The notes below the pieces were generated by a model. The model saw nothing but the letters and a program-made list of their open reading frames with translations. It did not search any database and had not been told where the DNA came from. Positions 17,899 through 53,252 of a DNA stretch of 64,000 nt are shown here, piece by piece (positions within the stretch are counted from its first letter, which is position 1; every line of letters starts with the position of its first letter). The DNA is taken from NCBI GenBank assembly GCA_030651135.1, contig JAUSCS010000013.1, positions 186,001-250,000 of the forward strand, read 5' to 3'. The stretch comes from Candidatus Woesearchaeota archaeon (GTDB taxonomy: Archaea; Nanobdellota; Nanobdellia; Woesearchaeales; JACPBO01). A program made the translations under genes and the position numbers.

Positions 17899-18543
17899 TT
17901 AATCCTCAAGTTTTATTCTTATTTCCTTTTCAAAAACTTTCTTGACAGCTTCCTTGGTTATGGTGACAACATCAATGCCGTCGCCGCTTGCTATATCCCT
18001 CTGCAATGCTGCGTTTACTGACTGGATAGCGAGCTTTACGCCTTCTGCCACAGAAAGGCCTTTCTTGTACAAAGTTTCCAAAACACCATAAACCATTACA
18101 CTGCCTGATCCTGAAGAAATAAAATCGTCAATCTCTGTTATTGTTCCGTCCGGGAAGATTTCGTAAATAAAGAACCCGCCTTCATCCTTGCCGCCCATCA
18201 CAAAATGCGACACACCAGGAATCATGCTCATTTTCCTTATATTTGAGTAAACTAAGCGTGAGAAAAGGTTTGCAGCTTCCTTTACAGTGGCTTCCTTTCC
18301 TGTCCTTATTTTTTTAAGCCTAAGCTCTGATTGGCCGTATCTTATTAGCAATTGGGAATCTGAAGCTGTTCCAGCCATTGTAACTGCAATATTATCTGTA
18401 ACTTTATGTATTTTTTCTGTCTTTTTGCTGGCTATTAAATAGCCTGCTGTGGCTCTCTTGTCTGCTGCAAGAACAATCCCGTCTTTGCAGAGTATTCCTA
18501 CTGTTGTTGTTCCAGTTTTCATTATGTTTTCGTTTTTGTCCAT
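17899..18543 (-). CDS. psmB: Proteasome beta subunit
   Basis: The catalytic subunit of the 20S core. A short propeptide (MDKNENIMKTG) precedes the TTTVG sequence whose first threonine becomes the N-terminal nucleophile. GIVLAADKRATAG carries the conserved Asp and Lys, and SGSGSVMVYGVLE with DGIDVVTIT completes the family pattern. Length 214. It is transcribed with fttA. No alpha subunit gene lies in the window. Confidence 0.96.
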   Translation of the reverse strand: MDKNENIMKTGTTTVGILCKDGIVLAADKRATAGYLIASKKTEKIHKVTDNIAVTMAGTASDSQLLIRYGQSELRLKKIRTGKEATVKEAANLFSRLVYSNIRKMSMIPGVSHFVMGGKDEGGFFIYEIFPDGTITEIDDFISSGSGSVMVYGVLETLYKKGLSVAEGVKLAIQSVNAALQRDIASGDGIDVVTITKEAVKKVFEKEIRIKLED

Positions 18544-26232: not shown

Positions 26233-26317
26233 GCCTCCGTGGCATAGTAGCTATTGCGGCTGACTTGTATCTATGCAAGCCATCAGCAGGTCGGGAGTGC
26301 AAATCTCCCCGGAGGCT
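26233..26317 (+). tRNA. tRNA-Thr (TGT) with a 12-nt anticodon-loop intron
   Basis: Acceptor GCCTCCG (26233-26239) pairs with CGGAGGC (26310-26316); discriminator T fits Thr. The anticodon stem GCTGA/TCAGC (26259-26263, 26283-26287) holds a 19-base loop. Removing TCTATGCAAGCC (26270-26281) after position 37 leaves CTTGTAA with anticodon TGT. CTTGTA of the exon pairs with TGCAAG of the intron, as in archaeal bulge-helix-bulge introns. Oddities: the D loop lacks the GG pair, and the T loop reads TGCAAAT with G in place of the usual T at position 55. Confidence 0.85.
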
Positions 26318-28014: not shown

Positions 28015-29040
28015 TTATTGTTTTTTGAACAGGAAGTCAACTGCAACAGTCGCATAGCTTCCTTTTTGAAGGCTGAATTTTATTGTTATTTTTTCTTTGT
28101 TTTTATTTAGCTCATCTTTTTCTTTTTTAATAATTTTAAAGCCTTTAATCTTAATGAACAAATTTCTCAATCCGCCTTCAGAACTTAATTCGGGAAGAAA
28201 CTTTAAAACAAAATCCCTCGGATTGATCTTTTCAGCTTCAAGGGTTTTTTTAATTATTTTTTTTAATTTTGGATTTTTAACGGCATCAAGATCCAAGCCA
28301 AATCCGATTAGCGGGATCTTCAGGTTTTTTTTATTTTTATAATTTTTCAAGAACACAGAAACAATATCATTCCATAAAAAGCTCTGATATGAGTGAATAT
28401 ACAGCCTTAAAACGCGCTTTGGAATGATCTTCAATGCAGCGTTATAGTTGTTTTTGTTATTTTCCAAAAAACCATTTATTTTTTCTTTCAGAAAGCCATC
28501 GTTTTCAATAATCAGCTCAATTGCTTCTTTAATTTTATTCTTTAGGATCAATTTTCCTATCTCGATGTTGTTTTTTGAGAATCTCTGCTCACCGTAATAA
28601 TTCGGAATCTTTAATTTGTTGCTTTTTATCATTTTTGTATTTTTCAAAAATACATTTATCTCTTTTTTATCTAAATTCCTAATAATAATCTCAAAACTAT
28701 TGCCTTCTAAATCGCCTAATGAGATTGGCTGGTCAGAATAACCAAGGAATTTCAGTTCGATATTTTTTATTTTCAGGTTGTTTATTTTTTCAAAAAAAGC
28801 ATCATTGAAAATTTTAATAGAAACAATCTGTTCGGTTATTGCTTCTTTATCTTTATTCCCGGCATAACCTATTTCTTTATTTTTTATATTTAATGAATGA
28901 GAAATAAGCTCTATTGCTTCTGGAGTTGAACAATTTCTTTTTTTCAATAAAAAAACCCCGTGACTGCCTTTTTCTTTCAACTTGATATTGCTTATCTCCT
29001 TTACAGCAAAATCCTCAGGAATCTGCTTTATTCTGTACAT
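28015..29040 (-). CDS. truD: tRNA pseudouridine synthase TruD
   Basis: 341 residues. Family marks are the opening KQIPEDFAVKEIS, IGYAGNKDKEAITEQ with the catalytic Asp, and NYYGEQRFS. It modifies U13 of tRNA in the D arm. Its DNA is the most AT-rich of the larger genes here, with many lysines and isoleucines. It diverges from tRNA-Arg, whose D arm carries an intron. Confidence 0.93.
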   Translation of the reverse strand: MYRIKQIPEDFAVKEISNIKLKEKGSHGVFLLKKRNCSTPEAIELISHSLNIKNKEIGYAGNKDKEAITEQIVSIKIFNDAFFEKINNLKIKNIELKFLGYSDQPISLGDLEGNSFEIIIRNLDKKEINVFLKNTKMIKSNKLKIPNYYGEQRFSKNNIEIGKLILKNKIKEAIELIIENDGFLKEKINGFLENNKNNYNAALKIIPKRVLRLYIHSYQSFLWNDIVSVFLKNYKNKKNLKIPLIGFGLDLDAVKNPKLKKIIKKTLEAEKINPRDFVLKFLPELSSEGGLRNLFIKIKGFKIIKKEKDELNKNKEKITIKFSLQKGSYATVAVDFLFKKQ

Positions 29041-29092
29041 AATCAGAAATAATCAAAAACTATTTAAAACCTTTACTAATAATATTGCATGT

Positions 29093-29199
29093 GGACCTGT
29101 AGCGCAGTCTGGTAACTTCAATGTTGGACAAATAGCGCGGCAGCCCCCTAAGCTGTAGGTCGGGAGTTCGAAACAAATGCGAAAGTCTCCCCAGGTCCG
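29093..29199 (+). tRNA. tRNA-Arg (CCT) with introns in the D loop and the T loop
   Basis: Acceptor GGACCTG (29093-29099) pairs with CAGGTCC (29192-29198). D stem GCGC (29102-29105) pairs with GCGC (29135-29138) only when about 20 bases (29115-29134) are removed. Anticodon stem 29140-29144/29152-29156 encloses CCCCTAA with anticodon CCT, and C at position 33 instead of T. T stem GGGAG/CTCCC (29162-29166, 29187-29191) encloses TTCGAA-T after removal of 13 bases (29173-29185). With both removed a textbook tRNA results. These are non-canonical intron sites; exact boundaries may shift by a base or two. Confidence 0.85.
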
Positions 29200-53152: not shown

Positions 53153-53252
53153 TAGCCCCGGGCGGATTCGAACCGCCGTCTCAGCCTCCAAAGGGCCGAA
53201 TGAATTGCCTTCTCTAATAAATTAGAGAATTTGACCGCTACACTACGGGGCT
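53153..53252 (-). tRNA. tRNA-Gln (TTG) with a D-loop intron
   Basis: On the reverse strand, AGCCCCG (53252-53246) pairs with CGGGGCT (53160-53154), followed by discriminator A. Anticodon stem CGGCC/GGCTG encloses CTTTGGA with anticodon TTG (53191-53189). T stem GGCGG/CCGCC encloses TTCGAAT. Between D-loop GGTCAA and the 3' D-stem strand lies an insertion of about 27 bases (53204-53230) that itself folds (TTCTCTAA/TTAGAGAA). Removing it restores a normal D arm, so it is read as an intron. Confidence 0.88.

Follow-up and report, generated by a model that had tools for sequence, protein, structure and literature searches.

The tRNA-Arg(CCT) locus

The window, which is the whole analysed stretch of 64,000 nucleotides, is part of a 1.415-Mb genome in 13 contigs. 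Positions 29093-29199 of its forward strand hold a tRNA-Arg(CCT) gene of 107 nt that is interrupted by two short bulge-helix-bulge (BHB) introns, as identified by a BHB-aware cloverleaf search and by ARAGORN on the spliced form. Exon 1 (29093..29112) comprises the 5′ strands of the acceptor and D stems and the D loop up to G19, and homologues align to it over gene positions 1-20. Exon 2 (29132..29172) runs from the end of the D loop through the 3′ strand of the D stem and the anticodon arm, and continues with the variable loop, the 5′ strand of the T stem and the T loop up to A59. Exon 3 (29186..29199) contributes T60, the 3′ strands of the T and acceptor stems and the discriminator G73. The anticodon CCT lies at 29147..29149 with C33 immediately upstream at 29146, all on the plus strand. 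Removal of the introns gives a mature sequence of 75 nt (GGACCTGTAGCGCAGTCTGGATAGCGCGGCAGCCCCCTAAGCTGTAGGTCGGGAGTTCGAATCTCCCCAGGTCCG), a standard tRNA that agrees with intronless homologues; its stems are standard, as originally predicted, but not all perfect, with one G-U pair in the anticodon stem. A TATA-box-like element, TATTTAAAA, is located 24-32 nt upstream of the gene (29061..29069, plus strand), is conserved in the sister genome G001 and may act as a TATA box. The divergent neighbour is an open reading frame on the minus strand (28015..29040), which from its sequence we take to be truD (tRNA pseudouridine synthase D), and this synteny is kept in many relatives.

Standard tools do not recover the gene from the genomic sequence. 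Both ARAGORN on the unspliced positions 29093-29199 and Rfam at the gathering score miss it, and a permissive Rfam search of the locus returns weak, unrelated matches only; with both inserts deleted, ARAGORN calls tRNA-Arg(cct). The BHB-aware search joins exons across BHB motifs only (a 4-bp helix and two 3-nt bulges) and then scores the cloverleaf, such that it takes 3-4-3 motifs while looser motifs are outside its reach. It scores the locus at 61.2, whereas none of 2000 dinucleotide shuffles of this region exceeds 38.4. When the window is tiled with this search, four tRNAs stand out clearly (His, Arg(CCT), Gln(TTG) and Thr(TGT)), and no non-tRNA tile scores above 37.2. The prediction of a tRNA-Arg(CCT) with introns in the D and T loops, made earlier from the sequence alone, is borne out by the ARAGORN call and the shuffle comparison, and the BHB search that had been proposed as a check finds the motif at both introns.

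Structure of the two introns

The D-loop intron has 19 nt (TAACTTCAATGTTGGACAA) and occupies 29113..29131 (plus strand) at site 19/20. Its BHB motif consists of the helix GTCT/GGAC, the bulges GG^T and AA^A, which set the cuts, and the inner helix AAC/GTT. In homologues without this intron (e.g., G034, G050 and G014), the stretch matching gene positions 1-20 is followed directly by the one matching 40-80. The intron is therefore placed at 29113-29131 by the BHB cuts together with the alignments of these homologues, and the originally predicted boundaries of 29115-29134 are incorrect; once spliced, the tRNA has the D loop AGTCTGGATA instead of AGTCTGGTA. The T-loop intron has 13 nt (ACAAATGCGAAAG) and occupies 29173..29185 (plus strand) at site 59/60, exactly as predicted. 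It is found by the BHB search, the genome pattern described below and the fold. Its motif consists of the helix TTCG/CGAA, the bulges AA^A and AG^T, and an inner helix of only one C:G pair closing AAAT.

Both introns thus have a central helix of four pairs between 3-nt bulges at the exon-intron junctions, and neither has intact helices beyond both bulges. For the D-loop intron, the inner side is intact, whereas the outer helix has an A14-T20a pair and is then interrupted by an unpaired A. For the T-loop intron, the outer side is intact and the inner helix is reduced to a single pair. The two introns are BHB motifs relaxed on one side rather than non-BHB introns. When the precursor is folded without constraints, pair probabilities are 0.87-0.97 for the T-loop helix and 0.22-0.28 for the D-loop helix, and the D-loop BHB lies 0.4 kcal/mol above the predicted minimum without being itself the minimum.

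Introns in other tRNA genes of the genome

The tRNA-Arg(CCT) gene is not alone in having introns, since the window also holds a tRNA-Gln(TTG) gene with a D-loop intron of about 27 nt (53153..53252, minus strand; Rfam, ARAGORN and the BHB-aware search) and a tRNA-Thr(TGT) gene with a 12-nt anticodon-loop intron (26233..26317, plus strand), which is seen in the window tiling and missed by ARAGORN and Rfam. The T loop of this tRNA-Thr(TGT) reads TGCAAAT, with G at position 55, and that of Val(CAC) (L013) reads TGCAAGT. Over the genome, introns are found in 24 of the 36 tRNA genes resolved by search or by eye, a provisional fraction as the inventory, drawn from search hits and their loci, is incomplete, and 11 of the 36 have T-loop introns. 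The T-loop intron pattern GTTCRAAN{6,36}YGAAARTC occurs at 10 places in this genome compared with one for the reversed pattern used as control, and at 195 compared with 86 over 60 genomes; given the matches of the reversed control, the pattern alone is no proof of an intron. Eight of the 10 places are T-loop introns of tRNAs, namely Arg(CCT), Asp(GTC), Ala(TGC), Ala(GGC), Cys(GCA), Leu(TAG), Ile(TAT) and a class II tRNA, so the intron grammar of tRNA-Arg(CCT) recurs in seven other tRNA genes; the remaining two (L210 and L211) are not tRNAs and were rejected. Leu(TAG) and Ile(TAT) carry three introns each, and additional T-loop introns are present in Ser(TGA), Phe(GAA) and Tyr(GTA).

The class II tRNA (L029/L203; G000:C6, about 18417-18523, minus strand) has the anticodon loop CTTATGA (anticodon TAT), G73 and a 25-nt T-loop intron. 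It is conserved in G001 and G049, its homologues in G042 and G038 have CTTAAGA (Leu TAA), and the genome also has a class I Ile(TAT). The reassignment of AUA that this tRNA might suggest was rejected, because an invariant TruD isoleucine has ATA as its codon. A partial copy upstream of the intact gene (G000:C6:18564-18617), also present in G001, is perhaps a tRNA relic. A second tRNA-Lys(CTT) (L002) on a very short contig of 5 kb (G000:C7) is bacterial-looking and possibly a contamination.

Homologous genes in relatives

The TruD-related loci in named genomes belong mostly to Candidatus Woesearchaeota or Nanoarchaeota. Among 30 resolved homologous CCT genes, the D-loop intron is present in 10, the 59/60 T-loop intron in 12 and both in eight, while 12 genes of the same order, several of them adjoining truD, are intronless and allow the spliced sequence to be read directly. 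The D-loop introns are at 19/20, except at 20a/21 in G015 and G016, and some homologues are interrupted within the anticodon arm or close to it. Conservation of the mature tRNA is high, whereas the sequences and lengths of the introns vary widely, with T-site introns ranging from 13 to 121 nt across families. The oddity of C33 noted originally is confirmed: the anticodon loop is CCCCTAA in the window and CTCCTAA (U33) in nearly all homologues, with C33 also present in G001 and G056.

In the sister genome G001, the TruD of which is 82% identical to that of the window, both introns are identical, none of the 32 intron bases being changed. The tRNA-Arg(CCT) exons differ at two positions, which jointly form one compensatory change from G-C to A-T in the T stem, compared with about 11 changes per about 150 bases in the flanks.

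Splicing endonuclease and ligase

The genome encodes one EndA of 205 aa and alpha type, found by profile search with PF01974, which aligns with solved enzymes through its catalytic regions and has N. equitans subunit 3iey_A as the closest solved chain (E 1.1e-37). A query with the genome's own EndA detects no paralogue at E<=10, and PF01974 none at E<=1. The first of these negatives carries weight, as this EndA does match NEQ261 (3iey_B), the partner chain from N. equitans, at E 1.1e-12. An EndA match over the cut-off is found in 57 of 60 genomes, the window's own included, and with few exceptions it is a single one. The protein has the gene-level features of the alpha-4 class, being the only EndA homologue detected, of a size near the usual 180-200 aa, with no beta gene and no fusion. 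At 205 aa it lacks the three fused units of about 390 aa of an epsilon-2 enzyme, and with no second EndA match no beta subunit gene is detected as in (alpha-beta)2 enzymes. The ASL residues Y160/K161 named for ARMAN-2 EndA (PMC12397907) align with V and L in a loop that is three residues shorter. The question of subunit type posed originally is thus answered with a single alpha-type EndA having no detectable beta paralogue and no ASL motif, which would be predicted to form an alpha-4 tetramer. The C-terminal W202 is common to N. equitans 3iey_A; a case for broad specificity via an Arg/Trp base sandwich involving this residue was dropped, because W384 of ARMAN-2 falls at another alignment position. 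The tRNA ligase RtcB is also present, within a 982-aa ORF (L214/L215; G000:C6:535893-538694), and carries a large in-frame insert, probably an intein, which separates its two matching regions by about 1.47 kb.

Alternative explanations

That standard tRNA finders reject the locus and that C33 deviates from a near-universal U33 could indicate a pseudogene or decaying tRNA with its loops broken by unspliced insertions. This is highly improbable because the introns are unchanged in G001, the T-stem change is compensatory, no second CCT gene is found and the TATA-like element is conserved; neither pairing nor conservation has been lost. Exact BHB motifs at both inserts, the same intron grammar in many other tRNA genes of the genome and occupation of the same sites in other families also argue against decay. 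An intact second tRNA-Arg(CCT), which had been named as grounds for refuting the prediction, does not appear in a DNA search of this genome or among its resolvable Rfam matches. A separate question, concerning intron origin and not splicing, is whether the introns are old and have been lost in some lineages, or are recent mobile insertions that spread from one tRNA gene to another at two hot spots. The constancy of the sites across families, combined with very different intron sequences and lengths, is consistent with insertion, and intron transposition has been proposed for Thermoproteales (PMC4090602). However, an unsystematic look saw no intron sequence common to different tRNA genes beyond the BHB grammar, and the TruD tree with intron states is resolved too poorly to count gains against losses, such that recent insertion is considered rather unlikely.

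With regard to the enzyme, the introns could be removed by a broad-specificity (alpha-beta)2 endonuclease whose second subunit is strongly diverged or unannotated, as in Nanoarchaeum equitans. The nearest solved chain works with a beta subunit in that organism, and each BHB is relaxed on one side, which fits such an enzyme. The lack of any second EndA-like protein at the above thresholds, the ready detection of NEQ261 from this EndA and the single EndA in nearly all of the 60 genomes make a hidden beta subunit improbable.

Proposed splicing mechanism

The introns, their boundaries, BHB pairing and conservation, and the EndA and RtcB genes, are established here by sequence and comparison, and the preferred reading is that of a working, apparently single-copy tRNA-Arg(CCT) whose two BHB introns are very probably cut by a lone alpha-type EndA and whose exons are joined by RtcB. 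The precursor would be transcribed, cleaved and ligated as follows. The conserved loop bases of the tRNA itself would supply one strand of the BHB helix in each arm, with loop GTCT pairing with intron GGAC in the D arm, leaving G18 and G19 in the bulge, and loop TTCG pairing with intron CGAA in the T arm. A single alpha-type EndA would cut each motif within the 3-nt bulges, and RtcB would join the exons to a 75-nt tRNA like the intronless homologues. Points that speak against this reading are the low probability and interrupted outer helix of the D-loop motif, the one-pair inner helix of the T-loop motif and the narrow specificity ascribed to alpha-only EndAs (PMC6379350, PMC4033280). The D and T loops must touch in a finished tRNA, and the elbow partners G18/G19 and T55/C56 would be occupied until both introns are gone; splicing would therefore precede elbow-dependent maturation.

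Comparison with known systems and implications

Non-canonical tRNA intron sites including 20/21 and 59/60 are known in archaea (PMC8450103), especially in Crenarchaeota and Nanoarchaeota (PMC4090602). The sites 19/20 and 59/60 are recorded or near recorded archaeal sites, and the introns are of a known kind; what is noteworthy is their combination with a lone alpha-type EndA, recurring across a whole order. The presence of two non-canonical introns in a DPANN-type archaeon stands as predicted, but is less surprising than supposed, as Nanoarchaeum equitans and ARMAN-1/2 are already on record with multi-intron tRNAs (PMC4033280). The literature search found no report of tRNA introns in Woesearchaeales, which is weak evidence of absence.

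The original argument that introns at such sites need an endonuclease of broadened specificity is unsupported as far as it rests on site, because EndA recognises the BHB motif regardless of where it lies, and splice sites are called transplantable (PMC4090602). It receives some support from the relaxed motifs, for which (alpha-beta)2 or epsilon-2 enzymes are reported to be required (PMC6379350), alpha-4 enzymes being described as narrow and acting on canonical motifs only (PMC4033280, PMC6379350). We tentatively suggest that in Woesearchaeota-like archaea a lone alpha-type EndA without CSL, ASL or beta subunit might have broadened its own specificity and remove half-relaxed BHB introns at the recurrent sites 19/20 and 59/60, with conserved loop sequences of the tRNA providing one strand of the motif, although we consider this somewhat doubtful. 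If true, it would break the proposed link of EndA architecture to intron diversity, since odd tRNA introns are currently linked with special splicing enzymes that either bear a loop or have two subunits. The genome and its relatives appear to pair many odd introns with the simplest enzyme type, and the architecture rule can therefore be tested directly using a single small protein and a 107-nt RNA. As standard finders miss tRNA genes in these genomes, care is also needed with claims of missing tRNAs in DPANN archaea.

Several known systems resemble the present one in part. Thermoproteales (Pyrobaculum and others) likewise have many tRNA genes that each contain multiple short BHB introns, but are Crenarchaeota with CSL-bearing (alpha-beta)2 enzymes, in contrast to a DPANN order with one alpha-type EndA. 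ARMAN-1/2 are DPANN with multi-intron tRNAs, as here, whereas their epsilon-2 EndA is a three-unit enzyme with ASL Y160/K161, both absent from the present protein. The Asgard groups Atabeyarchaeia and Freyarchaeia have a very high load of non-canonical introns, with more than half of genes having several (PMC11291895), but represent another archaeal group, and the load here (24/36 resolved) is lower and incomplete. Nanoarchaeum equitans and Nst1 are of a related lineage, the former providing the closest solved EndA (3iey_A). As in the present genome, no beta gene has been identified in Nst1 (PMC3655853), where two of 41 tRNAs contain introns, compared with about two thirds of those resolved here.
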